From: Nannobrachium achirus
Lineage: Eukaryota; Chordata; Actinopteri; Myctophiformes; Myctophidae
Assembly: GCA_963921795.1 (NCBI GenBank)
Contig: OY997647.1
Coordinates: 66,011,237-66,075,236, forward strand
Reading direction: 5' to 3'
DNA: 64,000 nt
The notes beneath the pieces were generated by a model. That model saw only the letters and a list, made by a program, of their open reading frames with translations. It did not search any database and was not told the origin of the DNA. The position numbers and the translations under genes are program-made. Below are positions 1,407 to 57,384 of the stretch, piece after piece (the first letter of the stretch is position 1; the number at the start of each line of letters is the position of its first letter).

Positions 1407-2425
1407 TTAAGTGTGCCTATGCATAGCATGGGCAGACTTATTGTTATCGCTCATATTTATTTATTTATTTACTTACTTAAGTCTGTCCATACTTTTCCCC
1501 AAAGTTTGGCACGCAACTCCTCCCACAGTTTTTGCACCACACACTCGCGCCATATGTCAAATCGACCGGCTTACTCGGGAATGGTGTGCTATCAAGTTGC
1601 TAAGAGAAAGGTTCTATAGTTTAATTGATATTAATTTATTAGTGAATTAATTTTCCCCATTGACTTATAATGGGAATCGCATTCAATTATTTTTCTCTCG
1701 CAAACCATAGGGGCTACAGTTTCAAGACTTGGAGAGGAGGTTCATAATGATTGTAAGAATTAATCAAAAAATAATGACATCACTCGGCCTCATGGTGGCG
1801 CTATAACGGCCAACTTTACGTTTTGCCCCGTAACTCTTGAACCGTAGGTCGGAAAATGAAAATTCTTTTTTCCCTGGATTCCTTGGGTCAAGACGCATCT
1901 CCCCATATAGGCCACGCCCATTTGCGCCAGGATAGATTTTCCGCCATCTTGAATTTTCTCCAAAACACACTTTTTGCTCCTTTTCCTACATATTTTCTTC
2001 AAATGTCTTAAAAACCGGTACACATGATCTATGAAGCCATGCGATAAACATAGTCAAAGGATATTTCGATAGTCCGTACCGTTCGTTCGTAACGCGCTTC
2101 CAAAGTTAGCGGGAGGGGCCCGTTTCGCAAACGATAGCCATAAATCACAAACAATAGGTCGAGTCAACACTGAATTTCAACCACAGGTCGGGGGTGGCAT
2201 ACTCAACGAATCCCCAAAAGCATTTCCACTTCGACCCCTAGGGGGCGTCACAAACGCGCAAAACGTAACCGTTTCGTGCCAGAACGCGTTTTTCACGGGG
2301 ACCGACCCTCTCACAACGCAACGCGGACGACTCGGCGGACGGTCTCACGGTCCGAACCGCCACACAAGGTCGCGCATTTAGCGCGCTGCAGGCACACTTG
2401 TCAAAATTGACTCTGTCAATTCTAG
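1407..2425 (+). mobile_element. HEL-A monomer 1 (Helentron-like, non-autonomous)
   Basis: Complete 1019-bp monomer. The 5' end has AAGTGTGCC (1409-1417) that can pair with GGGCAGACTT (1430-1439), followed by a TTTA/TTAC microsatellite. The body includes GGTGGCGCTATAAC near 1795 and CCTAGGGGGCGTC near 2238. The 3' end has the complement GGCACACTT, a 7-bp stem hairpin and CTAG at 2422-2425. No Rep or helicase coding is present. Confidence 0.85.
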
Positions 2426-3876
2426 TTAAGTGTGCCTATGCATAGCATGGGCAGACTTATTGTTATCACTCATACTTAAGCCAGACATGGAGACACACAC
2501 ACATGTATTTCCCCAAAGTTTGGCACGCTACTCCTCCCACAGTTTTTGCACCACACACTTGCGCCATATGTCAAATCGACCGGCTTACGCGGGAATCGTG
2601 TGCTATCAACTTGCTAAGAGAAAGGTTCTATAGTTTAATTGATATGAATTTATTAAGAAATTAATTAACCCTTACCTGTCCCCATTGACTTATAATGGGA
2701 ATCGCATTCAATAATTTTTCTCTCGCAAACCATAGGGGCTACAGTTTCAAGACTCAGAGAGGAGGTTCATAATGATTACAAGGAATAAATAAAAAATAAT
2801 AGCGTCATTTGGCCTCATGGTGGCGCTATAACAGCCCAGTGTACGTTTTGGCCTGTAACTGTTGAACCGTAGGTCGGAAAATTAAACTTATTTTTTCCCC
2901 GGATTCCTTGGGCCAAGACGCATCTCCCCATATAGGCCACGCCCATTTGCGCCAGGATAGATTTTCCGCCATCTTGAATTTTCTCCGAAACACACTTTTT
3001 GCTCCTTTTCCTACATATTTTCTTCAAATGTCTTAAAAACCGGTACACGTGATCTATGAAGCCACGCGATAAACATAGTCAAAGGATATTTCGATAGTCT
3101 ATACCGTTCATTCGTAACGTGCTTCCAAAGTTAGCGGGAGGGGCCCGTTTTGCAAACAATAGCCATAAATCACAAACAAAAGGTCCATTCAACACTGAAT
3201 TTCAACCACAGGTCGGGGGTGGCATACTCAACGAATCCCAAAAAGCATTTCCACTTGGCCACATGGTGGCGCTATAACGGACCACTTGCCTCGTAACTCT
3301 TGAACCGTAGGTCGGAGAATTACAATTATTTTTTCCCTGGATTCCTTGGGTCACGACGCATCTCTCCATATAGGATACGCCAATTTGCACATGGGAAGAT
3401 TTTCCGCCATCTTGAATTTTCTCCTAAACACACTTTTTACTCCTTTTCCTACACATTTTCTTCAAATGTCTTAAAAACCGGTACACATGATCTTTAAAGC
3501 CATGCGATAAACATAGTCAAAGGATATCTCGATAATCCGTACCGTTCGTTCGTAACGCGCTTCCAAAGTTAGCGGGAGGGGCCCGTTTTGCTAACAATAG
3601 CCATAAATCACAAACAATAGGTCGAGTCAACACTGAATTTCAACCAAAGGTCGGGGGTGGCATACTCAACGATTCCCCAAAAGCATTTCAACTTCGACCC
3701 CTAGGGGGCGTCACAAACGCGCAAAACGTAACCGTTTCGTGCCAGAACGCGTTTTTCACGGGGACCGACCCTCTCACAACGAAACGCGGACGGTCTCACG
3801 GTCCGAACCGCCGCACAGGGTCGCGCATTTAGCGCGCTGCAGGCACACTTGTCAAAATTGACTCTGTCAATTCTAG
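2426..3876 (+). mobile_element. HEL-A monomer 2 (long form)
   Basis: 1451 bp. It has the same 5' hairpin motif and 3' hairpin+CTAG (3873-3876) as monomer 1. It differs by an internal duplication of about 446 bp: the GGTGGCGCTATAAC block appears at about 2818 and again at about 3264. Confidence 0.85.
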
Positions 3877-5325
3877 TTAAGTGTGCCTATGCATAGCATG
3901 GGACACTTATTGTTCTCGCTCATATTTATTTATTTATTTATGTCTGTCCATACGATTCCCCAAAGTTTGGCACGCTACTCCTCCCACAGTTTTTGCAACA
4001 CACACTCGCGCCATATGTCAAATCGACCGGCTTACTCGGGAATGGTGTGCTATTAAGTTGCTAAGAGAAAGGTTCTATAGTTTAATTGATATTAATTTAT
4101 TAGTGCATTAATTTCTCCCCATTGACTTATAATGGGAATGGCAAAAACTCACATTCAATTAATTTTCTCTCGCAAACCATAGGGCCTACAGTTTCAACAC
4201 TTGGAGAGGAGGTTCATAATGATTTCAAGGATTAAATAAAAAATAATAGTGTCATTTGGCCTCATGGTGGCGCTATAACAGCCCACTTTACGTTTTGGCC
4301 TGTAACTGTTGAACCGTAGGTCGGAAAATGAAAATTCTTTTTTCCCTGGATTCCTTGGGTCAAGACGCATCTCCCGATATAGGCCACGCCCATTTGTGCC
4401 AGGATAGATTTTCCGCCATCTTGAATTTTCTCCAAAACACACTTTTTGTTCCTTTTCCGACATATTTTCTTCAAATTGCACAAAAAACGGTACACATGAT
4501 CTATGAACCCATGCAATGAACATACTCAAGGGATATTGCGATAGTCCATTACGTTCGTTCGTAACGCGCTTCCAAAGTTAGCGGGAGGGGCCCGTTTTGC
4601 AAACAATAGCCATAAATCACAAACAAAAGGTCCAGTCAACACTGAATTTCAACCACAGGTCGGGGGTGGCATACTCAACGATCCCCAAAAGCATTTCCAA
4701 TTGGCCACATGGTGGCGCTATAACGGACCACTTGCCTCGTAACTCTTGAACCATAGGTCGGAGAATTAAAATTATTTTTTCCCTGGATTCCTTGGGTCAC
4801 GACGCATCTCTCCATATAGGACACGCCAATTTGCACATGGGAAGATTTTTCACCATTTCAAATTTTCTCCAAAAGACACTTTTTGCTCCTTTTCCTACAT
4901 ATTTTCTTCAAATGTCTTAAAAACCGGTACACGTGATCTATGAAGCCATGCGATAAACATAGTCAAAGGATATTTCGATAGTCCATACCGTACCTTCGTA
5001 ACGCGCTGCCAAAGTTAGCGGGAGGGGCCCGTTTCGCAAACGATAGCCATAAATCACAAACAATAGGTCGAGTCAACACTGAATTTCAACAGCAGGTCGG
5101 GGGTGGCATACTCAACGAATCCCCAAAAGCATTTCCACTTCGACCCCTAGGGGGCGTCACGAACGCGCGAAACGTAACCGTTTCGTGCCGGAACGCGTTT
5201 TTCACGGGGACCGACCCTCTCACAACGAAACGCAGACAACTTGGCGGATGGTCTCACCGTCCAAACCGCTACACAAGGTCGTGCATTGCAGGCACACTTG
5301 TCAAAATTGACTCTGTCAATTCTAG
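3877..5325 (+). mobile_element. HEL-A monomer 3 (long form)
   Basis: 1449 bp, with CTAG at 5322-5325. The internal duplication has a 445-bp period (block starts at about 4258 and 4703). The 5' end carries AAGTGTGCC. Confidence 0.85.
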
Positions 5326-6275
5326 TATTGACTTTACAAGCGCACTCTCTAAACTTCGGCACGCTACTCCTCCCACAGTTTTTGCACCACACACTCGCGC
5401 CATATGTCAAAACGACCGGCTTACTCGGGAATCGTGTGCTAGTAACTTGCTAAGAGAAAGGTTCTATAGTTTAATTTATATTAATTTATTAGTGAATTAA
5501 TTTTTCCCCATTGATTTATAATGGGACAATGAAAAAAGTCACATTCAAGTATTTTTCTATCGCAAACCATAGGGCCTACAGTTTCAAACCTCGTAGAGCA
5601 GATTCATAATGATTTTAAGAATAAATCGAAAAATAATTACACCATCCATCCTCATGGTGGCGCTATAGCGGCTCACTTTACGTTTTGCCCCGTAACTCTT
5701 GAACCGTAGATCGGAAAATGAAAATTATTTTTTCCCTGGATTCCTTGGGTCAAGACGCATCTCTCCATATAGGCCACGCCCATTTGCGTATGGATAGATT
5801 TTCCGCCATCTTGAATTTTCTCCAAAACACACTTTTTGCTCCTTTTCCTACATATTTTCTTCAAATGTTTTAAAAACCGGTACACATGATCTATGAAGGC
5901 ATGCAATAAACATAGTCAAAGGATATTTCGATAGTCCATACCGTTCGTTCGTAACGGCCTTCCAAAGTTAGCGGGAGGGGCCCGTTTCGCAAACGAGAGC
6001 CATAAATCACAAACAAAAGGTCAAGTCAACACTGAATTTTAACCACGGGTCGCGGGTGGCATACTCAACGTTTCCCCAAAAGCATTTCCACTTCGACCCA
6101 TAGGGGGCGTCACAAACGCGCGAAACGTAACCGTTTCGTGCCAGAACGCGTTTTTCACGGGGACCGACCCTCTCACAACGAAACACGGGCTTGGCGGATT
6201 GTCTCACCGTCCAAACCGCTGCACAAGGTCGCGCACTGCAGGCACACTTGTCAAAATTGACTCTGTCAATTCTAG
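5326..6275 (+). mobile_element. HEL-A monomer 4 (short form, variant 5' end)
   Basis: 950 bp, with CTAG at 6272-6275. The first bases (TATTGACTTTACAAGC) replace the AAGTGTGCC hairpin, a second 5'-end type shared with monomer 11 and, diverged, with monomers 7-9. Confidence 0.85.
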
Positions 6276-7721
6276 TTAAGTGTGCCTATGCATAGCATGG
6301 GCAGACTTATTGTTATCGCTCATATTTACTTAAGTCTGTCCATACTTTTCCCCAAAGTTTGGCACGCTACTCCTCCCACAGTTTTTGCACCACACACTCG
6401 CGCCATATGTCAAATCGACCGGCTTACGCGGGAATCGTGTGCTATCAACTTGCTAAGAGAAAGGTACTATAGTTTAATTGATATGAATTTATTAGTGAAT
6501 TAATTTTCCCCATTGACTTATAATGGGAATCGCATTCAATTATTTTTCTCTCGCAAACCATAGGGGCTACAGTTTCAAGACTTGGAGAGGAGGTTCATAA
6601 TGATGTCAAGGATTAAATAAAAAATAATAGTGTCTTTTGGCCTCATGGTGGCGCTATAACAGCCCACTTTACCTTTTGGCCTGTAACTCTTGAACCATAG
6701 GTCGGAAAATTAAAAATCTTTTTTCCCTGGATTCCTTGGGTCATGACGCATCTCCCCATATAGGCCACGCCCATTTGCGCCAGGATAGATTTTCCGCCAT
6801 CTTGCATTTTCTCCAAAACACACTTTTTACTCCTTTTACAACATATTTTCTTCAAATGGCACAAAAAGCGGTACACATGATCTATGAACCCTTACAATGA
6901 ACATACTCAAGGGATATTTTGATAGTCCATATCGTTCGTTCGTAACGCGCTTCTAAAGTTAGTGGGAGGAGCCCGTTTCGCAAACAATAGCCATAAATCA
7001 CAAACAAAACGTCGAGTCAACACTGAATTTCAACCAAAGGTCAGGGGTGGCATACTCAACGAATCCCCAAAAGCATTTCCACTCGGCCACATGGTGGCGC
7101 TATAACGGACCACTTGCCTCGTAACTCTTGAACCGTAGATCGGAAAATGAAAATTATTTTTTCCCTGGATTCCTTGGGTCAAGACGCATCTCCCCATATA
7201 GGCCCCGCCCATTTGCGTAGGGCTAGATTTTCCGCCATTTTGAATTTTCTCCAAAACACACTTTTTGCTCCTTTTCCCACATATTTTCTTCAAATGTCAC
7301 AAAAAGCGGTACACATGATCTATGAACCCACCCGATGAACCTATTCAAGGGATATTTCGATAGTCCTTACCGTTCGTCCGTAACGCGATTCCAAAGTTAG
7401 CGGGAGGGGCCCGTTTCGCAAACAATAGCCATAAATAACAAACAAAAGGTCGGGTCAACACCGAATTTCACTTAAAGGTCGGGGGTGGCATACTCTACGT
7501 ATCCCGTAAAGCATTTCCACTTCGACCCGTAGGGGGCGTCACAAGCGCGCTAAACGTAACCCTTTCGGGCCAAAACACGTTTTTCACGGGGAACGACCCT
7601 CTCACAATGAAACGCAGACGACTCGGCGGATGGTCTCACGGTCCGAACCGCTGCACGAGGTCGCGCATTTAGCGAGCTGCACTGCAGGCACACTTGTCAA
7701 AATTGACTCTGTCAATTCTAG
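6276..7721 (+). mobile_element. HEL-A monomer 5 (long form)
   Basis: 1446 bp, with CTAG at 7718-7721. The duplicated blocks start at about 6639 and 7085. The 5' end carries AAGTGTGCC. Confidence 0.85.
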
Positions 7722-9125
7722 TGTATGTATGTCCATGCTTTTCCCCAAAGTTTGACACGTTTCACAGACCACAGTTTTTGCGCCACACACTCGCGCCATA
7801 TGTCAAACCGACCGGGTTACTCGGGAATGGTGTGCTAGTAACTTGCTAAGAGAAAGGTTCTATAGTTTAATTGATATTAATTTATTAGTGAATTAATTTT
7901 CCCCCATTGACTTATAATGGGAATGGCAAAAACTCAAATTCAATTATTTGTCTCTCGCAAACCATAGGGGCTAGAGTTTCAAGACTTGGAGAGGAGGTTC
8001 ATAATGATTTCAAGGATTAAATAAAAAATAATAGTGTCATTTGGGCCTCATGGTGGCGCTGTAACAGCCCACTTTACGTTTTGGCCTGTAACTCTTGAAC
8101 CGTAGATCGGAAAATTAAAATTCTTTTTTCCCTGGATTCCTTGGGTCATGACGCATCTCGCCATATAGGCCACGCCCATTTGCGCCAGGATAGATTTTCC
8201 GCCATCTTGAATTTTCTCCAAAACACACTTTTTGCTTATTTTCCTAAATTTTTTCTACAAATGTCACAAAAAGCGGTATACCTGACCTATGAAGCCATGC
8301 AATGAACATACTCAAGGGATATTTTGATCGTCCGTACCGTTCGTTCGTAACGCGCTTCTAAAGTTAGCGGGATGGGCTTGTTTGGCAAACAATAGCCATA
8401 AATCACAAACAAAAGGTCCAGTCAACACTGAATTTCAACCACAGGTCGGGGGTGGCAAACTCAACGAATCCCCAAAAGCATTTCACTTGGCCACATGGTG
8501 GCGCTATAACGGACCACTTGCCTCGTAACTCTTGAACCGTAGGTCGGAGAATTAAAATTATTTTTTCCCTGGATTCCTTGGATCACGACGCATCTCTCCA
8601 TATAGGCCACGCAAATTCGAACACTGCGAGATTTTTCACCATTTTGAATTTTCTCCAAAACACACTTTTTGCTCCTTTTCCTACATATTTTCTTCACATG
8701 TCACGAAAATGGGTACACATGATCTATGAACCCATGCAATGAACATAGTCAAGGGATATTTTGATAGTCCATACCGTTTGTTCGTAACGGGCTTCCAAAT
8801 TTAGCGGGAGGGGCCCGTTTTGCAAACAATAGCCATAAATCACAAACAAAACGTTGAGTCAACACTGAATTTCTACCACAGGTTGCGGGTGGCTTACTCA
8901 ACGAATCCCCAAAAGCATTTCCAATTCGACCCGTAGGGGGCGTCACAAACGCACAAAACGTAACCGTTTCGTGCCAAAACGCATTTTTCACGGGGAACGA
9001 CCCTCTCACAACGAAACACAGACGACTTGCTGGATGGTCTCACAGTCCAAACTGCTGCACGAGGTCGCGCATTTAGCGAGCTGCACTGCAGGCACACTTG
9101 TCAAAATTGACTCTGTCAATTCTAG
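7722..9125 (+). mobile_element. HEL-A monomer 6 (long form)
   Basis: 1404 bp, with CTAG at 9122-9125. The duplicated blocks start at about 8044 and 8489. The 5' end is reduced to TGTATGTATGTCC. Confidence 0.85.
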
Positions 9126-10078
9126 TGTTGACTTTACAAGCGCACTCTCAAAACTTCGGCACGCTACTAGTGCCGCACCATTTACGCCACCCGCGCAATA
9201 TATACATCAAAACGTGCGGCTCGGCCGGGAATGGTGTGCTTGTAACTTTCTTTCCGATCCGCGTTACCATGGCGACGTAATTGGCAAAAAACTACGCTTA
9301 ATTTTCCCCATTGACTTATAATGGGACAATGCAAAAAGTCACATTCAAGTATTTTTCTCTCGCAAACCATAGGGGCTACAGTTTCAAACCTCGGAGAGGA
9401 GATTCATAATGATATTAAGAATGAATCGAAAAATAATTACATCACTCATCCTCATGGTGGCGCTATAAAGGCCCACTTTACGTTTTGCCCCGTAACTCTT
9501 GAACCGTAGATCGGAAAATGAAAAATATTTTTTCCCTGGATTCCTTGGGTCAGGACGCATCTCCCCATATAGGCCACGCCCATTTGCGTAGGGATAGATT
9601 TTCCGCCATCTAGAATTTTCTCCAAAACACACTTTTTGCTCCTTTTCCTACATATTTTCTTCAAATGTCTTAAAAACCGGTACACGTGATCTATGAAGCC
9701 ACGCGATAAACATAGTCAAAGGATATTTCGATAGTCCATACCGTACGTTCGTAACACGCTTCCAAAGTTAGCGGGAGGGGCCCGTTTCGCAAACGATAGC
9801 CATAAATCACAAACGATAGGTCGAGTCAACACTGAATTTCAACCACAGGTCGGGGGTGGCATACTCAACGAATCCCAAAAAGCATTTCCACTTCGACCCC
9901 TAGGGGGCGTCACAAACGCGCGAAACGTAACCGTTTCGTGCCGGAACGCGTTTTTCACGGGGACCGACCCTCTCACAACGAAACACAGACAACTTGCCGG
10001 ATGGTGTCACCGTCCAAACCGCTACACAAGGTCGTGCATTGCAGGCACACTTGTCAAAATTGACTCTGTCAATTCTAG
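9126..10078 (+). mobile_element. HEL-A monomer 7 (short form, diverged 5' part)
   Basis: 953 bp, with CTAG at 10075-10078. The stretch 9165-9300 differs clearly from all other monomers (for example a CCATGGCGACG word), while the rest matches the consensus. This suggests a subfamily or gene conversion. Confidence 0.8.
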
Positions 10079-11044
10079 TGTTGAATCTACAAGCACACTT
10101 TCCCAAAGTTTGGCACGCTACTCCTCCCACAGTTTTTGCACCACACACTCGCGCCATATGTCAAATCGACCGGCTTACTCGGGAATCGTGTGCTAGTAAC
10201 TTGCTAAGAGAAAGGTTCTATAGTTTAATTGATATGAATTTATTAGTGAATTAATTTTCCCCATTGACTTATAATGGGAATGGCAAAAACTCACATTCAA
10301 TTATTTTCCTCTCGCAAACCATAGAGGCTACAGTTTCAAGACTTGGAGAGGAGGTTCATAATGATTTCAAGGATTAAATAAAAAATAATAGTGTCACTTG
10401 GCCTCATGGTGGCGCTATAACAGCCCAGTTTACGTTTTGGCCTGTAACTGTTGAACCGTAGGTCGGAAAATTAAAATTCTTCTTTGCCTGGATTCCTTGG
10501 GTCAAGACGCATCTCTCGATATAGGCCCCGCCCATTTGCGTAGGGATAGATTTTCCGCCATCTTGAATTTTCTCCAAAACACACTTTTTGCTCCTTTTCC
10601 TACATATTTTCTTCAAATGTCTTAAAAACCGGTACACATGATCTATGAAGCCACGCGATAAACACAGTCAAAGGATATTTCGATAGTCCCTACCGTTCGT
10701 TCGTAACGCGCTTCCAAAGTTAGCGGGAGGGGCACGTTTCGCAAACGATAGCCATAAATCACAAACGATAAGTCGAGTCAACACTGAATTTCAACCACAG
10801 GTGGGGAGTGGCATACTCAACGAATCCCCAAAAGCATTTCCACTTCGACCCCTAGGGGGCGTCACAAACGCGCGAAACGTAACCGTTTCGTGCCGGAACG
10901 CGTTTTTCACGGGGACCGACCCTCTCACAACGAAACGCGGACGACTCGGCGGACGGTCTCGCGGTCCAAACCGCCGCACGAGGTCGCGCATTTATGGAGC
11001 TGCACTGCAGGCACACTTGTCAAAATTGACTCTGTCAATTCTAG
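10079..11044 (+). mobile_element. HEL-A monomer 8 (short form)
   Basis: 966 bp, with CTAG at 11041-11044. The 5' end begins TGTTGAATCTACAAGC, identical to monomer 9, so these two look like a recent local duplication. Confidence 0.85.
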
Positions 11045-11996
11045 TGTTGAATCTACAAGCACACTTTCCCAAAGTTTGGCACGCTACTCCTCCCACAGTT
11101 TTTGCACCACACACTCGCGCCATATGTCAAATCGACCGGCTTACACGGGAATCGTGTGCTAGTAAGTTGCTAAGAGAAAGGTTCTATAGTTTAATTGATA
11201 TGAATTTATTAGTGAATTAATTTTCCCCATTGACTTATAATGGGAATCGCAAAAAATCACATTCAATTATTTTTCTCACGCAAACCATAGGGGCTACAGT
11301 TTCAAGACTTGGAGAGGAGGTTCATAATGATTTCAAAGATTAAATAAAAAATAATCGTGTCATTTGGCCTCATGGTGGCGCTATAACAGCCCAGTTTACG
11401 TTTTGGCCTGTAACTGTTGAACCGTAGGTCGGAAAATTAAAATTCTTTTTTACCTGGATTCCTTGGGTCAAGACGCATCTCCTGATATAGGCCACGCCCA
11501 TTTGCGCCAGGATAGATTTTCCGCCATCTTGCATTTTCTCCAAAACACACTTTTTGATCCTTTTCCTACATATTTTCTTCAAATGTCTTAAAAACTGGTA
11601 CACGTGATCTATGAAGCCATGCGATAAACATAGTCAAAGGATATTTCGATAGTCCATACCGTACGTTCGTAACGCGCTTCCAAAGTTAGCGGGAGGGGCC
11701 CGTTTCGCAAACGATAGCCATAAATCACAAACAATAGGTCGAGTCAACACTGAATTTCAACCACAGGTCGGGGGTGGCATACTCAACGAATCCCCAAAAG
11801 CATTTCCACTTCGACCCCTAGGGGGCGTCACAAACGCGCGAAACGTAACCGTTTCGTGCCGGAACGCGTTTTTCACGGGGACCGACCCTCTCACAACGAA
11901 ACACAGACAACTTGGCGGATGGTCTCACCGTCCAAACCGCTACACAAGGTCGTGCATTGCAGGCACACTTGTCAAAATTGACCATGTCAATTCTAG
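11045..11996 (+). mobile_element. HEL-A monomer 9 (short form)
   Basis: 952 bp, with CTAG at 11993-11996. The 3' hairpin loop has changed (GACCATGTC instead of GACTCTGTC), which keeps the outer stem. Confidence 0.85.
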
Positions 11997-12869
11997 TTAA
12001 GTGTGCCTATGCATAGCATGGGCAGACTTATTGTTATCGCTCATATTTATTTACTTAAGTCTGTCCATACTTTTCCCCAAAGTTTGGCACGCTACTCCTC
12101 CCACAGTTTTTGCACCACACACTCGCGCCATATGTCAAATCGACCGGCTTACTCGGGAATGGTGTGCTATCAAGTTGCTAAGAGAAAGGTTCTATAGTTT
12201 AATTGATATTAATTTATTAGTGAATTAATTTTCCCCATTGACTTATAATGGGAATCGCATTCAATTATTTTTCTCTCGCAAACCATAGGGGCTACAGTTT
12301 CAAGACTTGGAGAGGAGGTTCATAATGATTGTAAGAATTAATCAAAAAATAATGACATCACTCGGCCTCATGGTGGCGCTATAACGGCCAACTTTACGTT
12401 TTGCCCCGTAACTCTTGAACCGTAGGTCGGAAAATGAAAATTATTTTTTCCCTGGATTCCTTGGTTCATGACGCATCTCCCCATATAGGCCACGCCCATT
12501 TGCGTATGGATAGATTTTCCGCCATCTTGAATTTTGTCCAAAACACACTTTTTGCTCCTTTTCCTACATATTTTCTTCAAATGTCTTAAAAACCGGTACA
12601 CATGATCTATGAAGCCACGCGATAAACATAGTCAAAGGATATTTCGATAGTCCATACCGTTTGTTCGTAACGCGCTTCCAAAGTTAGCGGGAGGGGCCCG
12701 TTTCACAAACGATAGCCATAAATCACAAACAATAAGTCGAGTCACCACCGAATTTCAACCACAGGTCGGGGGTGGCATACTCAACGAATCCCCAAAAGCA
12801 TTTCCACTTCGACCCCTAGGGGGCGTCACAAACGCGCCAAACGTAACCGTTTCGTGGCAGAACGCGTTT
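11997..12869 (+). mobile_element. HEL-A monomer 10, 3'-truncated
   Basis: The 5' end with AAGTGTGCC and the body match the consensus up to about AACGCGTTT. The sequence then passes into TACTG satellite, so the usual 3' hairpin is missing. Confidence 0.8.
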
Positions 12870-12892
12870 CAGACACAGGCATTGCGATTGAG

Positions 12893-13226
12893 CTGTGCTG
12901 TACTTTACTGCACTGTATTGTACTGTACCGTACCGTACTGTATTGTACTCTGTCTTCTGTACTGTACTGTACTGTACTGTACTGTACTGTACTGTACTGT
13001 ACTGTACTGTACCTTACTCTGCTGTAGTGTACTGTACCTTACTGTATTGTAGTGTACTGTATCTTCTGTACTGTCTGTGCTGTAGCTTACTGTGCTGTAG
13101 TGTACTGTACCTTACCGTACTGTAGTGTGCTGTACCTTACTGTATTGTAGTGTACTGTGTCTTCTGTACTGTACTGTATGGTAGTGTACTGTACTTTTAT
13201 GGTACCGTTCTGTGCCTTACTGTAGT
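12893..13226. repeat. (TACTG)n satellite, block 2
   Basis: TACTG pentamers, with a clean core at 12957-13010 and degenerate flanks. This is the same satellite as at 1167-1317. It sits between two broken HEL-A monomers. Confidence 0.92.
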
Positions 13227-13237
13227 GAACTGTAAAA

Positions 13238-13267
13238 GGGTTAGGGTTAGGGTTAGGGTTAGGGTTA
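13238..13267. repeat. Interstitial telomere-type repeat
   Basis: Five TTAGGG units directly between the TACTG block and the resumed HEL-A sequence. Confidence 0.95.
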
Positions 13268-13539
13268 ATAGGTCGAGTCAACACTGAATTTCAACCACAG
13301 GTCGGGGCTGGCATACTCAACGAATCCCCAAAAGCATTTCCACTTCGACCCCTAGGGGGCGTCACAAACGCGCGAAACGTAACCGTTTCGTGCCAGAACG
13401 CGTTTTTCAGGGGGACCGACCCTCTCAAAACGAAACACGGACGACTCGGCGGACGGTCTCACGGTCCGAACCGCCGCACAAGGTCGCGCATTTAGCGAGC
13501 TGCAGGCACACTTGTCAAAATTGACTCTGTCAATTCTAG
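13268..13539 (+). mobile_element. HEL-A partial monomer, 5'-truncated
   Basis: It restarts at GTCGAGTCAACACTG and runs to the normal hairpin and CTAG (13536-13539). It overlaps in content with the truncated monomer on the left, so this is a junction of two partial copies rather than a simple insertion. Confidence 0.8.
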
Positions 13540-14481
13540 TATTGACTTTACAACCGCACTCTCTAAACTTCGGCACGCTACTCCTCCCACAGTTTTTGCA
13601 CCACACACTCGCGCCATATGTCAAAACGACCGGCTTACTCGGGAATCGTGTGCTAGTAACTTGCTAAGAGAAAGGTTCTATAGTTTAATTGATATTAATT
13701 TATTAGTGAATTAATTTTTCCCCATTGACTTATAATGGGACAATGCAAAAAGTCACATTCAAGTATTTTTCTCTCGCAAACCATAGGGGCTACAGTTTCA
13801 AACCTCGGAGAGGAGATTCATAATGATTTTAAGAATAAATCGAAAAATAATTACACCACTCATCCTCATGGTGGCGCTATAACGGCTCACTTTACGTTTT
13901 GCCCCGTAACTCTTGAACCGTAGATCGGAAAATGAAAATTGTTTTTTCCCTGGATTCCTTGGGTCAAGACGCATCTCCCCATATAGGCCACGCCCATTTG
14001 CGTATGGGTAGATTTTCCGCCATCTTGAATTTTCTCCAAAACACACTTTTTGCTCCTTTTCCCACATATTTTCTTCAAATGTCTTAAAAACCGGTACACA
14101 TGATCTATGCAGCCACGCGATAAACATAGTCAAAGGATATTTTGATAGTCCGTACCGTTCGTTCGTAACGCGCTTCCAAAGTTAGCGGGAGGGGCCCGTT
14201 TCGCAAACGATAGCCATAAATCACAAACAATAGGTCGAGTCAACACTGAATTTCAACCACAGGTCGGGGGTGGCATACTCAACGAATCCCCAAAAGCATT
14301 TCCACTTCGACCCCTAGGGGGCGTCACAAACGCGCGAAACGTAACCGTTTCGTGCCAAAACGCGTTTTTCACGGGGACCGACCCTCTCACAACGAAACGC
14401 AGGCGGTCCGAACCGCCGCACAAGGTCGCGCATTCAGCGCGCTGCAGGCACACTTGTCAAAATTGACTCTGTCAATTCTAG
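13540..14481 (+). mobile_element. HEL-A monomer 11 (last of array)
   Basis: 942 bp, with CTAG at 14478-14481. It starts with the TATTGACTTTACAA type 5' end. HEL-B begins at the next base. Confidence 0.85.
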
Positions 14482-16068
14482 TTTATTGTGGGCTCGCCTA
14501 TAAGGCGAGCACACTTTAGATATTGTCATTATTTACTAGGCAGGCAGTCAGTGCAAGTATCAAAAAACTTCGGTTCCTTTCTACTCCTACATACTTAGTG
14601 AGAAAATGAAAATAAAAACATCAATGTGTTCAGTTTACTGTGGCGAAGTGTGCTATTACTTTTTACAGCAATCGGCCAAATGGTGGCGCTGTAGGAAGCC
14701 TTCGAAAGTGCGATCTTTGAACAGGTATAGCTCATGCTGTGTTATACATACAGCCATGAAACCTGTATACACTTATGCGTCTCCTCATGCCGAACAACTT
14801 TTACCCTTTAACTTTTGACCTCTGACCTTTAGGTCTCCCACAATTCGGAATTATATGAAAAACAGTAAAAATCTATCTCCTCCTGGGATTTTTGCGATAC
14901 GCGCACAAAACTTTTTTCACATGAACTTTGGACCAATACGGTCAAACTAGTCTCGGCGGATTTCTTTTAAAGTGAAATATAATTTTTTAATAATTCAATC
15001 AATATTGCGGTTTTATGCAAATTATTCTTCGGCCTCTAAATCATACATGCAAAGTTACACGTTCATGGCATTTGGCAAAGATGTGGAGGGTTAGTCAAAG
15101 TATCACTGAAACCAATTTTATTCCAATCGGCCAAAGGGGGGCGCTATACGAAGCGTTTGAAAATTCAAACTTCAAACGGGCATAAGTCATGACTCGTTTC
15201 GTTTGAAGACATGCAACTTGTTACACGCGTGCTTTGACTCAAGCGGAAGACATCTGTGTCGTTGTTAAGTAAGCTCCGCCCTTCGATTTTCCGCCATTTT
15301 GAGCAGTTTGTAAAACGCGTAAATCCGCTTTTATTCTGGAATTTTCGCTCCACGTGCACAACACTTTTTTTACGTGAACTTTGGACCGATATCTAAAGAT
15401 CTGTCAGATCGGATTTCTTTAAAATTGAAACATGCTTTTTTAAATACATTCAATGAATATTGCAGTTTTATGCAAATTATTCTTCTGCCTCTAAATCATA
15501 CATGCAAAGTAACATGTTCATGGCATTTGGCAAAGATGTAGAGTGTTAGTCCAAATATCACTAAAACCAATCTTACCCCAATTGGCCAAAGGGGGGCGCT
15601 ATATCATTTTGAGCAGTTTGTGAAACGCTTAAACCCGTTAGGATTTTTTTTTTGTGCAATTTGCATGACACTTTCTACACACAATCTAAGGACCTTTATC
15701 TAATATGCCTATGAAGTGCACACACACAAAAAATAATAATAATGAATATAGCTGCAAGCAGCGATAAAGTGGCCAAAGCCAAAAACACCTCAAATCATGA
15801 ACACAGCCTGCAATGTGCGTGAAATCTTGCAAACACATTCCCAATAGGTCAAGGAACAGATACCACCCTTCTTACATTGGCCTGTTATAGCGCCACCAGC
15901 GGGTCAACTTTTGCACAACACATTTTTGGAACAAAATGGACCAATCTTTGACGTCAGTAACGTCAAAGAGAGCACTGCCTGCGATCTTGACATTTTGTAC
16001 TTTTATAGCCATTGTTTTCTGGCTTGAAGCGAGCCCACAATTGTTTCGAAGGAACAATATTTTTCTAG
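14482..16068 (+). mobile_element. HEL-B monomer 1 (Helentron-like, non-autonomous)
   Basis: 1587 bp. 5' end: GTGGGCTCGCC (14488-14498) pairs with GGCGAGCACAC (14504-14514) across a 5-base loop. Body: three diverged subrepeats, each with a GGCCAAA..GGCGCTRTA block (about 14656, 15123 and 15577), and one TATAGCGCCACC in the opposite sense near 15885. 3' end: GCGAGCCCAC (16029-16038), the hairpin ATTGTTTCGAAGGAACAAT, then T-rich sequence and CTAG at 16065-16068. Confidence 0.85.
15947..15967. promoter_or_regulatory. CRE-like palindrome in HEL-B monomers
   Basis: A perfect TGACGTCA octamer followed four bases later by a second ACGTCA half site, together an inverted repeat. The same block is in every HEL-B copy (for example 17499-17519, and near 19039, 20617, 22143, 23685 and 63842). 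TGACGTCA is the known CREB/ATF site. Use by the host is inference only. Confidence 0.4.
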
Positions 16069-17620
16069 TTATTTATCTATCAGGCAGGCAGGCAGTCATA
16101 TCAAGTATCAAAAAACTTCGGTTCCTTTCTACTCCTACATACTTAGTGAGAAAATGAAAATAAAAACATCAATGTGTTCAGTTTACAGTGGCGAAGTGTG
16201 CTATTACTTTTTACAGCAATCGGCCAAATGGTGGCGCTGTAGGAAGCCTTCGAAAGTGCGAACTTTGAACAGGTATAGCTCATGCTGTGTTATACATACA
16301 GCCATGAAACCTGTATACACTTATGCGTCTCCTCATGCCGAACAACTTTTACCCTCTAACTTTTGACCTCTGACCTTTAGGTCTCCCACATTTCGGAATT
16401 ATATGAAAAACAGTAAAAATCTATCTCCTCCTGGGTTTTTTTTGTTACGCGCACAAAACTTTTTTCACATGAACTTTGGACCAATACGGTCAGATTTATC
16501 TTGGTGGATTTCTTTTAAAGTGAAATATCATTTTTTAATAATTCAATCAATATTGCGGTTTTATGCAAATTATTCTTCGGCCTCTAAATCATATATGCAA
16601 AGTTACACATTCATGGCATTTGGCAAAGATGTGGAGGGTTAGTCAAAGTATCACTGAAACCAATTTTATTCCAATCGGCCAAAGGGGGGCGCTATACGAA
16701 GCGTTTGAAAATTCAAACTTCAAACGGGCATAAGTCATGACTCGTTTCATTTGAAGACATGCAACTTGTTACACGCGTGCTTTGACTCAAGCGGAAGACA
16801 TCTGTGTCGTTGTTAAGTAAGCTCCGCCCTTTGATTTTCCGCCATTTTGAGCAGTTTGTAAAACGCGTAAACCCGCTTTTATTCTGGAATTTTCGCTCCA
16901 CGTGCACAAAACTTTTTTTACGTGAACTTTGGACCGATATCTAAAGATCTGTCAGATCGGATTTCTTTAACATTGAAACATGCTTTTTTAAATAATTCAA
17001 ACAATATTGCATTTTTATGCAAATTATTCTTCTGCCTCTAAAACATACATGCAAAGTCACATTTTCATGACAAAATAGTGTAGAGGGTTAGTTCAAATAT
17101 CACTGAAACCAATCTTACCCCAAATGGCCAAAGGGGGGCGCTATATAATTTTGAGCAGTTTGTAAAACGCTTAAACCCGTTTTTATTCTAGGATTTTTTT
17201 TTGCAATTTGCATGAAACATTCTACACGCAATCTAAGGACCTTTAGCTAACATGCCTATGAAGTGCACACAAAAAAATTATAAAATAATAATAATAAATA
17301 TAGCTGCAAGCAGCGATAAAGTGTCCAAAGCCAAAAACACCTCAAATCATGAACACAGCCTGGGATGTGCGTGAAATCTTGCAAGCACATTCCCAATAGG
17401 TCAAGGAACAGATACCAACCTTCTCACATTGGCCTGTTATAGCGCCACCAGCGGGTCAACTTTTGCACAACACATTTTTGGAACAAAATGGACCAATCTT
17501 TGACGTCAGTAACGTCAAAGAGAGCACTGCCTGCGATCTTGACATTTTGTGCTTTTATAGCCATTGTTTTCCGGCTTGAAGCGAGCCCACTATTGTTTCG
17601 AAGGAACAATATTTTTCTAG
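16069..17620 (+). mobile_element. HEL-B monomer 2
   Basis: 1552 bp, ending in hairpin and CTAG (17617-17620). The 5' GCTCGCC hairpin is absent, replaced by a short TTATCTATCAGGCAGGCAGG tract. The body is colinear with monomer 1. Confidence 0.85.
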
Positions 17621-19159
17621 TTTATCTATCAGGCAGTCATATAGTAGACGGGAACTTCGGTTCCTTTCTACTCCTACATACTTAGTGAGAAAATGAAAAT
17701 AAAAACATCAATGTGTTCAGCTTACAGTGGTGAAGTGTGCTATTACTTTTTACAGCAATCGGCCAAATGGTGGCGCTGTAGGAAGCCTTCGAAAGTGCGA
17801 TCTTTGAACAGGTATAGCTCATGCTGTGTTTGAGGTACAGCCATGAAACCTGTATACACTTATGCGTCTCCTCATGCCGAACAACTTTTACCCTCTAACT
17901 TTTGACCTCTGACCTTTAGGTCTCCCACAATTCGGAATTATATGAAAAACAGTAAAAATCTATCTCCTCCTGGGATTTTCGCGATACGCGCATAAAACTT
18001 TTTTCACATGAACTTTGGACCAATGCGGTCAAACTAATCTCGGCGGATTTCTTTTAAAGTGAAATATAATTTTTTAATAATTCAATCAATAGTGCGGTTT
18101 TATGCAAATTATTCTTCGGCCTCTAAATCATACATGCAAAGTTACACGTTCATGGCATTTGGCAAAGATGTGGAGGGTTAGTCAAAGTATCACTGAAACC
18201 AATTTTATTCCAATCGGCCAAAGGGGGGCGCTATACGAAGCGTCTGAAAATTCAAACTTCAAACGGGCATAAGTCATGACTCGTTTCGTTCGAAGACATG
18301 CAACTTGTTACACGCGTGCTTTGACTCAAGCGGAAGACATCTGTGTCGTTGTTAAGTAAGCTCCGCCCTTTGATTTTCCGCCATTTTGAGCAGTTTGTAA
18401 AACGCGTAAACCCGCTTTTATTCTGGAATTTTCGCGTCACGTGCACAAAACTTTTTTTACGTGAACTTTGGACCGATATCTAAAGATCTGTCAGATCGGA
18501 TTTCTTTAACATTGAAACATGCTTTTTTAAATAATTCAAACAATATTGCATTTTTATGCAAATTATTCTTCTGCCTCTAAAACATACATGCAAAGTCACA
18601 TTTTCATGACAAAATAGTGTAGAGGGTTAGTTCAAATATCACTGAAACCAATCTTACCCCAAATGGCCAAAGGGGGGCGCTATATAATTTTGAGCAGTTT
18701 GTAAAACGCTTAAACCCGTTTTTATTCTAGGATTTTTTTTTGCAATTTGCATGAAACATTCTACACGCAATCTAAGGACCTTTATCTAACATGCCTATGA
18801 AGTGCACACAAAAAAATTATAAAATAATAATAATAAATATAGCTGCAAGCAGCGATAAAGTGTCCAAAGCCAAAAACACCTCAAATCATGAACACAGCCT
18901 GGGATGTGCGTGAAATCTTGCAAGCACATTCCCAATAGGTCAAGGAACAGATACCAACCTTCTCACATTGGCCTGTTATAGCGCCACCAGCGGGTCAACT
19001 TTTGCACAACACATTTTTGGAACAAAATGGACCAATCTTTGACGTCAGTAACGTCAAAGAGAGCACTGCCTGCGATCTTGACATTTTGTGCTTTTATAGC
19101 CATTGTTTTCCGGCTTGAAGCGAGCCCACTATTGTTTCGAAGGAACAATATTTTTCTAG
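17621..19159 (+). mobile_element. HEL-B monomer 3
   Basis: 1539 bp, with CTAG at 19156-19159. Its 5' end is the short TTATCTATCAGGCAG type. Confidence 0.85.
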
Positions 19160-20737
19160 TTGTGGGCTCGCCAGTACCTGGCGAGCACACTTTAGATATT
19201 GTCATTATTTATTTATTTATAAGTAGACGGGATTTTCGGTTCCTTTCTACTCCTACATACTTAGTGAGAAAATGAAAATAAAAACATCAATGTGTTCAGT
19301 TTACAGTGGCGAAGTGTGCTATTATTTTCTATAGCAATCTGCCAAATGGTGGCGCTGTAGGAAGCCTTCGAAAGTGCGATCTTTGAACAGGTATAGCTCA
19401 TGCTGTGTTATACATACAGCCATGAAACCTGTATACACTTATGCGTCTCCTCATGCCGAACAACTTTTACCCTCTAACTTTTGACCTCTGACCTTTAGGT
19501 CTCCCACAATTCAGAATTATATGAAAAACAGTAAAAATCTATCTCCTCCTGGGATTTTCGCGTCAAGTGCACAAAACTTTTTTCACATGAACTTTGGACC
19601 AATACCTATACAGTCTATGTGGTGAGAAGTTTGTACGTTAAACCATTAATTTTTAATAATTCAATTCATATTGCGGTTTTATGCAAATTATTATTCTGCC
19701 TCTAAATCAAACATGCAAAGTGTTACTTTCATGGCATTTGGCAAACATGTAGAGGGTTAGTCCAAATATCACTGAAACCAATCTTATTCCAATTGGCCAA
19801 AGGGGGGCGCTATACGAAGCGTTTGAAAATTCAAACTTCAAACGGGCATAAGTCTTGACTCGTTTCGTTTGAAGACATGCAACTTGTTACACGCGTGCTT
19901 TGACTCAAGCGGAAGACATATGTGTCGTTGTTAAGTAAGCTCCGCCCTTCGATTTTCCGCCAATTTGAGCAGTTTGTAAAACGCGTAAACCCGCTTTTAT
20001 TCTGGAATTTTCGCGTCACGTGCACAAAACTTTTTTTACGTGAACTTTGGACCGATATCTAAAGATCTGTCAGATCGGATTTCTTTAACATTGAAACATG
20101 CTTTTTTAAATAATTCAAACAATATTGCATTTTTATGCAAATTATTCTTCTGCCTCTAAAACATACATGCAAAGTCACATTTTCATGACAAAATAGTATA
20201 GAGGGTTAGTTCAAATATCACTGAAACCAATCTTACCCCAAATGGCCAAAGGGGGGCGCTATATAATTTTGAGCAGTTTGTAAAACACTTAAACCCGTTT
20301 TTATTCTAGGATTATTTTTGCAATTTGCATGAAACATTCTACACGCAATCTAAGGACCTTTATCTAACATGCCTATGAAGTGCACACAAAAAAATTATAA
20401 AATAATAATAATAAATATAGCTGCAAGCAGCGATAAAGTGTCCAAAGCCAAAAACACCTCAAATCATGAACACAGCCTGGGATGTGCGTGAAATCTTGCA
20501 AGCACATTCCCAATAGGTCAAGGAACAGATACCAACCTTCTCACATTGGCCTGTTATAGCGCCACCAGCGGGTCAACTTTTGCACAACACATTTTTGGAA
20601 CAAAATGGACCAATCTTTGACGTCAGTAACGTCAAAGAGAGCACTGCCTGCGATCTTGACATTTTGTGCTTTTATAGCCATTGTTTTCTGGCTTGAAGCG
20701 AGCCCACAATTGTTTCGAAGGAACAATATTTTTCTAG
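19160..20737 (+). mobile_element. HEL-B monomer 4 (intact 5' hairpin)
   Basis: 1578 bp, with CTAG at 20734-20737. The 5' end has GTGGGCTCGCC pairing with GGCGAGCACAC around a longer loop that itself extends the stem (CCAG/CTGG), so the stem is retained while the loop differs from monomer 1. Confidence 0.85.
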
Positions 20738-35676: not shown

Positions 35677-35699
35677 ACAACCAGGTTGACCTGGTCTAG

Positions 35700-35775: not shown

Positions 35776-35921
35776 AAGCTACATCATCAGCTACTGATGA
35801 TGATGATGATGATGATGATGACGATAAAAAGAAACCTCTCCCTCTCTCTCACACACACACGCATCGTACGCACGCACACACAAACTAAGCCAATAAATCC
35901 TAAATTCCCATCAAACTAGAC

Positions 35922-36095
35922 CAGGTCAACCTGGTTGTGCCAGACCCCCTGTCTGTCATCATCATTTATGACATCATGCCTTTTGTAGGCATGTCATCAT
36001 CATGTCATCATCATATATACCCTTTATATAGAAAACCCGGACAGACAGACAGACCGACATTTGCTTATGTAGGCCTACCCATTTCATGGGTCTGG
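35922..36095. mobile_element. GCCAGACCC-end MITE, inverted copy 2
   Basis: Reverse complement of 35530-35699, including about 25 bases beyond the GGGTCTGGC end. The two copies form a 170-bp-arm foldback with a loop of about 220 bases. Confidence 0.85.
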
Positions 36096-36459
36096 CAATA
36101 ATCCTAGTAGGCTGTGCAGTGCACGTACACTACACGCGGTACGTGCACGCGCGTGATAGGAACTCCACGTGTGTCCTGAGTAGCGACAAAAACAAACCAA
36201 GCACGTGGATCCTAACTGCTTGGATCAAGTTACTGATCCGGTCCGGATACGGAAACATTTCTTGCATGTATGTGTACGTGTAAATAGCCGGATGCAGTAG
36301 GCGGGCTCTAGACCGGATCCCAATGTCGGAGTGGCAACACGTCGCAATGGAAAACCGTTACCCTATCTCACTGATCACTGACCATCCCCCCATCCCAGGC
36401 TTCCAGTTCCACACGGATGCTCTGTTATCACACAGTATACAACTATATACAGTATACAA

Positions 36460-40802: not shown

Positions 40803-40975
40803 CTAGACCAGGTCAACCTGGTTGTGCCAGACCCCCTGTCTGTCATCATCATTTATGACATCATGCCTTTTGTAGGCATGTCATCATCATGTCATCATCA
40901 TATATACCCTTTATATAGAAAACCCGGACAGACATTTGCTTATGTAGGCCTACCCATTTCATGGGTCTGGCAATA
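40803..40975. mobile_element. GCCAGACCC-end MITE, copy 3
   Basis: Same orientation and nearly the same sequence as 35922-36095, including the non-MITE flank ACTAGACCAGGTCAACCTGG. It sits at the right edge of the 3.5-kb array. Confidence 0.85.
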
Positions 40976-47000: not shown

Positions 47001-47290
47001 ATTGTTTTTATTGTTTTTCAGCTTCCTTGAAATCTCATGTACATGAATGTTTGAATGGATATGTGTAAATATGATACATTTTAAATATTTATCTTATTGT
47101 TACCATGTTGTATACACATATATCGTTATATTATCTGTTTCATGTTGTCTCGTCGGAGTTTGTCTTTTCTTGTCACCCCTCCCCATGTGTTCTGTCCTGT
47201 GTACCCCCCTCCCCTGTGTGTCCCCCACTCTTGGCCTGCACCTTGTCGTGGTGAGTGGGCTTTAAACCAAGACAGGCCATTTAAACACCT
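47001..47290. other. Unassigned AT- then C-rich sequence
   Basis: It lies directly after the BEL/Pao stop and could include remains of its 3' LTR, but no repeat partner is in the window to test this. Confidence 0.35.
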
Positions 47291-47765
47291 TGTCTCCACC
47301 AGCCGAATGCAGGGGGATAGTATGTTTTCGCCCCTGTCTGTCTGTGCGTCCTTCCTCCAAGTTTGTTACCAGCTAATCTCCGGCACCGTTGGCCCGGTAG
47401 CTGCCGAAATGAGCGCACACACTCCCTGGATGCCAATTCAGAACCTCTGCCCCACATTTTTCAAATGTCCCTGTTCTAGCGCCACCATGAGGCCGATGAT
47501 TGCAAAACACATTTCTGTACACTACTCCTACAGATTTCGTCCAAGAATCACGCAAATCGGTAGACAGTACTCTACAGTAATGTGATTGACACAGACCTGT
47601 CTGATTGTCCATATTCCATCCCGATTGGCTGATATTGGCTTTCAAAGTTTGTAAGATTAGTCCATTTTGGACAAAATGCCTCATCACAAACGCAGGGTGC
47701 AATTAACATGAAATCGCGCACACACGTTCCCACTCGGCCGAGGAAGAAATGCCACTACAAATTTT
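47291..47765 (+). mobile_element. HEL-C 5' fragment
   Basis: It begins GTCTCCACCAGCCGAA (47292 on), with GGGGGATAG as the pairing arm at 47312-47320 and the GTATGTTTTC word. It then continues colinear with 56206-56740 (TAGCGCCACC at about 47479, and CCCACTCGGCCGAGGAAGAA). It is cut off before the TTAA MITE. Confidence 0.82.
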
Positions 47766-51260: not shown

Positions 51261-51265
<5 letters not shown>

Positions 51266-52765: not shown

Positions 52766-52779
52766 ATGTTAGTACTAAA

Positions 52780-55617: not shown

Positions 55618-55730
55618 GGCGGTCCCCAGATGACAGTGAAGAGACAATTTAAAGGGGAAGACCACCCATTTTCAATATTGAAATATGTCATTACTATACC
55701 TTAGAGGAGTTATGTGGAAATAGAATAAAA

Positions 55731-55747
55731 GGGTTAGGGTTAGGGTT
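55731..55747. repeat. Short TTAGGG tract
   Basis: Nearly three telomere-type units. Confidence 0.85.
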
Positions 55748-56204
55748 CCCCGTTCTTTGTTGCCTAGAACTGGAGGATTGATTTTGGGGTTTGTATTGTA
55801 AAGTACAATGTGTGATGTCATCAAGTTGTGGCTTATCAAAGCAGGGGGGTTCCCCCACTTCGATGATTATTTCGGTATGGTCTCAGCCTAAAAAGGTTGA
55901 GAACCACTGCATACAGCACTGTGAGCTATGTTCACTAGTTGGGGTCCCAGGTATAGACAAAATATTTTTCTTCTGGGTCTCGAGCCAAATGGTTTGGGCA
56001 CTGCTTATACAGCACCTACATATAGCACATTAGTCAAATGGTTCTACTGCTACATAAAACCATTAGGGGTGTCTAAACAAAGCCAAACCAGTAGAGAACC
56101 CCTACTAAAGAATCATACACGGGCTGAACAGGTTCTTTGTACAGCAGTGGCGCTGGGATCACCAACGATTCTGCCGGGGGACTGCAACGTTATATTTATT
56201 TCAT

Positions 56205-57384
56205 TGTCTCCACCAGCCGAAGGCATGGGGGAGAGTATGTTTTCCCCTCTGTCCGTGTGTCCGTGCGTGCGTGTGTCCGTGCGTGCGTGTGTCCGTGCGT
56301 GCGTCCCTTCGTGCGTGCGTCCGTCCGTCCGTGTCCTCGCAGTTTGTGTGCACCTAATCTCAGTCGCCATTGGCCCGGTCACTGCCAAAGTAAGCACACT
56401 CATTCCCTGGATGCCAATCTACAACCTCTGCCCTATACTTTTCAAATGGGCCTTTTCTAGCGCCAACTAGTGGCCGATGTTCGCGAAACACATTTCTGTG
56501 CACTACTCTTACAGATTTTGTCCAAAAAACCTACAAATCGGTAGGCAGTATCTCGACAGTCATGTGATCGACACGGATCTGTCCGATTTTGCATATTCCA
56601 TCCCGATTGGCTAAGATTGGCTTCCAAAGTTTGTAGGATTGAGCCATTTTGAACAAAATGCCTCAAATCCCAAACGCAAAGTACAATTATCATGAAATCG
56701 CGCACACACGTTCCCACTAGGTCGAGGAAGAAATGCCACTTAAAATATTTCTAAATCAGCCTCATGGTGGCGCTATAACAGGCCGATTTGTGGTTTTACC
56801 TATAACTCCACCGATTAGATTCAAACTTTGTAAGCACACTCCCTAGAGGCTAAGGATAAACCTTTGCCCTGCATTTTTCACATCAGCCTTTTATAGCGCC
56901 ACCTTTGGGCCGACTTATGTAAAACACATTTTTGGATATTACTCCTTCAGATTTTCTCCAAAAATCACGCAAATCGGTACACAGTATCTCTATAGTCATG
57001 TGATCAAGTCTGATCCATCTGAAATTTCATATTCCATCCTGATTGGCTAATATTAGCTTCCAAAGTTTGCAGGATTGCTCTGTTTTTGAACAAAATGCCT
57101 CAAATCATCAACGCAGCTTGCCATTACCGTGAAATTTGCCACACATATTCCCACTATGTCAAGGAACAAATGCTACCCTTTTCCCTTTTATAGCGCCACC
57201 AGCAGGTAGACTTTAGCAAAACACATTTTTGGAACACAATGCTTCAAATCATCATTCCGATTTCCATGAAAGGTCTAAGGTGAAGAACATATGCCACCCT
57301 TTTTACATTGGCCTATTATACAGTAGTACCACCAGGACGCCTGGCCTGGTGGAGACCTGTGCTCGGAAGAGCACTGCTTCTAGT
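56205..57384 (+). mobile_element. HEL-C element, full length (Helentron-like)
   Basis: About 1180 bp. 5' end: GTCTCCACC (56206-56214) can pair with GGGGGAGAG (56227-56235), followed by a GTCCGTGCGTGC microsatellite. Body: blocks with TAGCGCCA or GGTGGCGCTATA near 56459, 56766, 56891 and 57189. 3' end: GGTGGAGAC (57348-57356), the hairpin GTGCTCGGAAGAGCAC (57359-57374), TGCTT, then CTAG (57380-57383). Copy A of the duplication has the empty site at 54761-54764. No coding. Confidence 0.9.

Follow-up and report, generated by a model that had tools for sequence, protein, structure and literature searches.

A 64,000-nucleotide stretch of the genome of the myctophid fish Nannobrachium achirus (contig OY997647.1, positions 66,011,237 to 66,075,236 of the forward strand; hereafter, the window) harbors four repeat families, HEL-A, HEL-B, HEL-C and HEL-E, that, along with a fifth one, HEL-D, located outside the window beside another Rep lineage on C9, are, judging by their sequences, almost certainly Helentrons, that is, rolling-circle transposons of the Helitron2 group. 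The copies that were read are mostly short and non-autonomous. The design of the ends is already known, and the first-pass annotation, which assigned HEL-A, -B and -C to the Helentron/Helitron2 class with asymmetric terminal inverted repeats (ATIRs), had the class right, with the design, the hairpins and the autonomous partner of HEL-A all in agreement. Taken as a whole, the observations are probably best explained by such Helentrons with a switch at the replication endpoint, insertion at A|TT sites in a pad just inside the 5' hairpin, and later exchange; the more specific proposition that nesting directed by this pad is a main builder of the arrays appears somewhat better than even.

In HEL-A, -B and -C, the common order of elements is TT, a block X, an imperfect 5' partner of X, the 3' partner of X (X'), a hairpin and CTAG, followed by a T. 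A de novo scan that was given only this design (TT, a 9-mer, the complement of the 9-mer before a hairpin, CTAG and T) detected 19 pairs of X and 3' end in the window, representing 17 distinct 3' ends because some X were counted with two successive ones, and these belong to HEL-A, -B, -C and -E; the reversed window yielded no pairs, and neither did the reversed loci from L009 on. The identical layout ending in CTAG that had been claimed for the first three families was thus recovered without recourse to their sequences, and one extra family, HEL-E, that had been overlooked came to light. ATIRs, in which X marks the 5' end and X' precedes the 3' hairpin, are present in HEL-A, -B, -C and -E in the window and in HEL-D at locus L049, and in all five families the hairpin, whose stem has at least 6-7 bp, is followed by CTAG. 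In HEL-A, -C, -D and -E, the 3' partner pairs perfectly with X; in HEL-B, 10 of the 11 bases match. The partner that had been proposed for the 5' end is there as well, and X folds with nearby bases into a 5' hairpin in all five families, but the pairing is imperfect in each of them.

The hairpin, X and X' sequences named in the first-pass annotation were all found where it had placed them. In the window, GGCACACTT occurs 17 times (shuffle mean, 0.72), GCGAGCCCAC 11 times (0.04) and GGTGGAGAC 3 times (0.17), and there are 11 exact hairpins of HEL-A, 7 of HEL-B and 1 of HEL-C. Across the genome (1.66 Gb in 564 contigs), exact matches number 2,017 for the HEL-A hairpin and 5,623, 5,371 and 3,279 for the 3' ends of HEL-B, -C and -E, respectively, with none for the backwards controls. 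At one place (L083, C2:5441501-5442300), an X' of the HEL-A type precedes an unrelated hairpin, AAAATTTCTTCGAAATTTT, and CTAG, so that the letters of the hairpin can change while X' is kept. In the HEL-D array at L049 (C9:8226451-8235450), one unit without X starts as a perfect hairpin with different letters, TGTTTAATCGC-TCCA-GGCGATTAAACA, which may be a 5' end belonging to a further family.

The elements appear to start with TT, two bases ahead of X; apart from these two bases, neither consensus ends running past CTAG or ahead of X nor a loss of conserved pairing, the outcomes that would have spoken against the first-pass annotation, were encountered. CTAG is followed by T at every HEL-A place but one (there are 2,017 exact hairpins) and in 19 of 20 HEL-C copies, and the TT before X, combined with the T after CTAG, fits either an element that carries its own TT or a 2-bp target duplication. 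The base preceding TT-X is A in 15 of 16 HEL-B, 9 of 13 HEL-C, 2 of 3 HEL-E and 4 of 7 HEL-A contexts, compared with a background of 24%, where contexts are counted once each and the HEL-B set includes stub junctions, so that not all are insertions into host sequence. At L044, where a HEL-A copy is nested in HEL-B, the junctions fit an empty HEL-B pad if a segment from TT to CTAG entered at A|T, with some ambiguity caused by the run of T.

Of the dispersed HEL-C copies (the first 20 listed on C1, of the 5,371 exact 3' ends, chosen by exact hairpin plus CTAG and not by X'), 16 have X without a mismatch at a distance of up to 1.5 kb, 1 has an X with one mismatch and 3 have none; X' is exact in all 20, and the 5' partner differs among copies in both its sequence and its spacing. 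Six of the 20 share their flanks and probably represent one nested insertion that was amplified. Because X and X' hardly vary within HEL-C, compensatory changes inside this family cannot be used as evidence of pairing, and the covariation argument of the first-pass annotation rests on differences between families. The bodies of the short units of HEL-A and HEL-D are 82-88% identical, and their X and X' differ by matching inserted blocks, which fits the behavior expected of paired arms.

The two partners of X are not equivalent. For isolated duplexes with DNA parameters, a simplification that takes account neither of the enzyme nor of the remaining strand and counts against reading too much into the values, the energies of X with the 3' X' and with the 5' partner are, respectively, -12.1 and -9.0 kcal/mol in HEL-A, -16.6 and -14.9 in HEL-B, -11.9 and -8.1 in HEL-C, -16.8 and -12.1 in HEL-D, and -14.0 and -7.6 in HEL-E, so that the 3' pairing is the stronger one in all five families; the folds of the whole 5' hairpins have energies of -9.1, -14.6, -8.9, -12.0 and -6.9 (HEL-A to HEL-E). 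This bias fits the endpoint switch proposed by Bao and Jurka (PMC3627910) as it is described there: at the 5' end, X would fold on its imperfect neighbor, and when replication reaches the end of the element, the stronger 3' X' would capture X from the 5' hairpin and thereby mark the stop.

The genome contains at least 150 places with a Helitron_like_N domain, and four of these lie in frames of 2,615-2,668 amino acids (aa) within a HEL-A array on C1. One unit of 28,576 bp (C1:14,679,232-14,707,807) has the HEL-A X at one end and X', hairpin and CTAG at the other, and a relaxed scan of it found CTAG plus hairpin ends of the HEL-A type only. It holds an open frame of 2,642 aa with DUF6570, Helitron_like_N, PIF1 and a C-terminal Exo_endo_phos domain, reading against the orientation that the ends define, and thus provides the autonomous partner that the first-pass annotation had proposed to seek. 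Between its 3' end and the Rep frame (L039-L040), about 14.6 kb contain no stop-to-stop frame longer than 123 aa. On C9, the distance from the endonuclease of a 3,116-aa frame to the HEL-B 3' end downstream of it is about 8.5 kb, in an element that shares with the short HEL-B unit just its terminal 94 bp plus a single short module, and a HEL-D 3' end is located downstream of a 2,349-aa frame, about 3.9 kb from its endonuclease; both these links involve 3' ends only, which weighs against them. The endonuclease of the HEL-D lineage is 58% identical to that of HEL-A, and those of the HEL-B lineage members on C9 and C12, 54-55%; the respective values are 89% for a 2,758-aa lineage and 34% for a 2,950-aa lineage. 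The expectation that a single type of Rep/helicase serves all families is therefore not supported: HEL-A, -B and -D go with different Rep-helicase-endonuclease lineages, so the design is common and the enzymes are not one, and each family may have its own.

Near the Rep lineages at L047-L054, no HEL-C ends were found except for one X-like match in L052, and no HEL-C partner was found there; the end search identified no ends for the 2,758-aa (L047), 2,950-aa (L050) and 3,025-aa (L054) lineages. The 2,950-aa lineage was considered as a second partner of HEL-B and rejected, given that the HEL-B tail at L050 is a fragment in its own right, which matches the element at L048 with about 95% identity and has lost its CTAG.

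Assignment of these families to canonical Helitron1 is highly improbable. The CTAG|T ends and the insertion at A|T are Helitron1-like too, the hairpin and CTRR type of 3' end is present in all five families, and two other Rep lineages, at L051 and L052, have downstream hairpins that are rich in GC, carry GAA loops and lead into CTAG|T, ends that themselves look Helitron1-like. However, the 5' ends of the five families are TT-X and not TC, inverted partners occur at both ends, and the frames linked to HEL-A, -B and -D carry an endonuclease.

The families differ in their genomic distribution. Among the first 100 listed C1 places per search, 92 HEL-A 3' ends (82 of the 100 sampled HEL-A ends come from one array) and 74 HEL-B 3' ends have a same-strand neighbor within 3.2 kb, compared with 14 for HEL-C and 4 for HEL-E and an expectation of 0.6-1.5 under uniform placement; adjacent pairs on the same and on opposite strands number 81 and 0 for HEL-A, 55 and 2 for HEL-B, 7 and 5 for HEL-C, and 2 and 4 for HEL-E. 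Polarity is special to HEL-A and HEL-B, and HEL-C and HEL-E are dispersed. For HEL-D, the ends are arranged head to tail at L049, and the Rep spacings on C9 are about 27 kb.

In the window, pattern and hairpin matches delineate a head-to-tail HEL-A array on the plus strand (1372..14481), which begins with the 3' terminal part of a preceding unit (1372-1406) and contains five complete units from TT-X to CTAG (1407-2425, 2426-3876, 3877-5325, 6276-7721 and 11997-13539) and six units without X (5326-6275, 7722-9125, 9126-10078, 10079-11044, 11045-11996 and 13540-14481), so that only 5 of the 11 units starting in the array carry X. Directly behind it, on the same strand, follows a HEL-B array (14486..23804) with two complete units (14486-16068 and 19160-20737) and four that lack X (16069-17620, 17621-19159, 20738-22263 and 22264-23804), that is, 4 of 6. 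This order, a HEL-A array and then a HEL-B array, matches that on C1, where the HEL-A array with the four Rep frames spans 242 kb, is flanked by HEL-B stubs and an X-less HEL-B unit, and apparently sits inside a HEL-B pad. To the left of the HEL-A array in the window, there is a simple repeat and no HEL-B stub.

The polar arrangement goes along with a feature of the 5' ends. A|TT sites are found just inside the 5' hairpin in all five HEL-A, all three HEL-B and the single HEL-D copy that were read, and are absent from 10 of 12 HEL-C and all three HEL-E copies. In the proposed mechanism, new copies would favor these sites within a resident element in HEL-A, HEL-B and probably HEL-D; the T strand would fix the orientation, hence the head-to-tail arrays; and each insertion into the pad would leave a bodyless 5' stub at the 5' edge of the array and an X-less remnant downstream. 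The stub prediction was checked at seven array edges: five of HEL-B, that of the C1 HEL-A array, and one other (L081), which turned out to be still inside an array. At four of the five HEL-B edges, bodyless stubs precede the first complete unit (5, 1, 3 and 1 stubs), and the C1 HEL-A array opens with three HEL-B stubs and one HEL-A stub. The stubs differ in breakpoint, at various A|TT sites of the pad, and in the hairpin loop, and HEL-A follows HEL-B, all of which makes simple slippage unlikely. One exact junction of the HEL-B pad with X occurs 720 times in the genome; the 11 occurrences on C1 below 42.4 Mb fall into 6 loci, all at the 5' edges of arrays, with the array's first exact 3' end following at a distance of 1.6-2.7 kb.

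Ordinary satellite amplification, in which a few insertions are followed by unequal crossing-over and conversion, offers no source for such ladders of stubs with differing breakpoints and loop types, or for the mixed HEL-A and HEL-B stubs, and leaves it unexplained that HEL-C and HEL-E, also with thousands of copies, form no polar arrays. We consider it unlikely as the whole explanation, despite two observations in its favor: in the C1 array, the spacing triplet 950-949-952 bp is seen three times (shuffle mean, 0.03), which points to segmental duplication and also counts against nesting, and the same X-less types turn up in the arrays of several chromosomes.

The starts of the X-less units are not scattered. 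All 14 distinct X-less HEL-A starts lie 24-33 bp before the body anchor, and all 8 starts of complete units lie 74-94 bp before it (17 non-canonical and 9 canonical rows, minus two HEL-B junctions and one overlap duplicate of each kind); random 5' truncation is therefore not supported as their source, all the distinct starts being confined to one narrow zone. The commonest X-less start, TRTTGAMTYTACAAGC, occurs at 412 places, on at least three chromosomes among the matches listed, and lies behind CTAG in 411 of them, so the X-less units do not appear to move alone; they must instead be copied, inside one array or from one to another, or be carried along by a complete unit ahead of them. In the mechanism outlined above, the remnants left by nested self-insertion would multiply by unequal exchange, including exchange between arrays, or as passengers of read-through dimers.

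The same units would be natural second members of dimers, which brings up rolling-circle concatemers: Rep would skip the 3' end, a dimer or longer product would insert at once, and CTAG|TT-X would be junctions of the circle type. The HEL-A unit junctions are indeed exactly CTAG-TT-X in 1,089 cases and contain a gap of 3-32 bases in only 13; these 13 gaps all hold pad-like T and A letters, which speaks for nesting. Neighboring HEL-A units in the window, however, are of mixed types and diverged (58-96% identical over the last 650 bp), not identical copies as concatemers would have them, and neither the stub ladders nor the HEL-A arrays inside HEL-B pads find an explanation, so that concatemers as the principal origin of the arrays seem doubtful.

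Several further observations weigh against pad-directed nesting. Among the 412 places of the commonest X-less type, no unsplit ancestor was seen, and its start behind CTAG implies that nested insertion is not the only engine; in the one array that was read as a whole, there are 5 stubs and only 2 X-less units. No intact X or stub was found at L079, one of the five HEL-B edges. The pad correlation involves five families with few HEL-D and HEL-E copies, A|TT sites in the pad are present also in 2 of the 12 HEL-C copies, and the TTTATTTA form of the pad is found in only 3 of 5 HEL-A and 2 of 3 HEL-B copies. As for the insertion sites, the remaining 3 of the 7 HEL-A contexts are G|TT, as at the CTAG|TT junctions of arrays, and neither of the two HEL-D contexts is A|TT, one having no TT at all. 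With these points taken into account, we advance only tentatively, at a little under even chance, the strongest form of the proposal, that the 5' hairpin together with the A|TT-rich pad is a self-addressing landing site that directs insertions of its own and other Helentron families to a position about 45 bp inside the element and in one orientation, that the pad-free HEL-C and HEL-E are dispersed for this reason, and that the X-less units are a second life form that is unable to start alone and exists only behind the CTAG of another copy.

The remaining elements of the window lie outside the arrays. HEL-E, with X GCCAGACCC, X' GGGTCTGGC and hairpin ACCAGGTTGACCTGGT before CTAG, is represented by three short copies of 171-183 bp detected by the design scan, one on the plus strand (35529..35699) and two on the minus strand (35916..36098 and 40803..40973). 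A complete HEL-C element extends from TT-GTCTCCACC to CTAG (56204..57383, plus strand); for another HEL-C 5' end, consisting of X and its 5' partner (47290..47325, plus strand), no 3' end was found. One HEL-B copy is located apart from the array (62833..63962, plus strand). Within the HEL-A units, a stretch rich in CTGTA repeats includes five copies of the telomere-like hexamer AGGGTT (13237-13267).

The body motif TATAGCGCCACC, described in the first-pass annotation as shared, is indeed abundant, with 23 copies in the window against a shuffle mean of 0.00, but its strand relative to the ends flips between HEL-A and HEL-B. In the autonomous HEL-A unit, it is located about 100 bp before the Rep frame, and the adjacent stretch has 72-78% identity with parts of the HEL-C unit and 75% with a HEL-B segment; that this region is a shared promoter-side module is a guess.

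The similarities to characterized systems are extensive. The Helitron2 group, for which Bao and Jurka described ATIRs, an endpoint switch and insertion after TTTT (PMC3627910), resembles the present families, in the parts of that article considered here, in the pairing of the 5' ATIR with nearby bases, the subterminal 3' ATIR just before the hairpin, the 5' T, the occasional opposite orientation of RepHel, as in Helitron-1_DR, and compensatory changes between related elements; the TTTT insertion differs, and the same material reports neither such arrays nor a 3'-over-5' bias. Helentrons, with HINE and DINE-1 (Thomas et al. 2014, PMC4067079), are described as sharing the Rep-helicase-endonuclease, subterminal inverted repeats, the 3' palindrome and short non-autonomous partners, and one Drosophila Helentron has a reversed frame like the 28.6-kb unit; their insertion at TT is described as leaving no clear duplication, which may hold here too; unlike the Helentrons of that account, the elements described here end directly with CTAG, as in the proto-Helentron (5' TT, 3' CTAG), and two of the families are found mostly as polar arrays. 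FoHeli of Fusarium (Chellapan et al. 2016, PMC5148889) has, according to the portions consulted, ATIRs, hairpins and multiple 5' termini acquired by self-insertion, with joined circular ends obtained by PCR and a reversed frame explained by nested insertion; it comprises a few copies with multiple termini, in contrast to the hundreds of stub junctions, X-less downstream units and cross-family nesting seen here. In the Pacific oyster, Helentron-type elements are also tied to tandem repeats, mostly short ones inside the element as far as the consulted text goes (PMC8268682), whereas here whole elements are the repeat unit. Ladders of stubs, X-less remnants, the pad correlation and cross-family nesting on such a scale were not encountered in those parts of the literature that we examined, and we make no wider claim of novelty.

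In our view, how the replication of rolling-circle transposons stops and where the copies land are still argued largely from end sequences. In the genome of N. achirus, five families have the same end design, and three of these are tied to enzyme lineages; there are also a consistent bias of 3' over 5' pairing and hundreds of stub junctions that would record landing events, so that the origin of transposon-derived arrays becomes testable. If the self-addressing landing site is real, a transposon that would otherwise be dispersed could be converted by its hairpin and pad into a polar array resembling a satellite, with stubs upstream, X-less units downstream and, in some arrays, giant autonomous copies.

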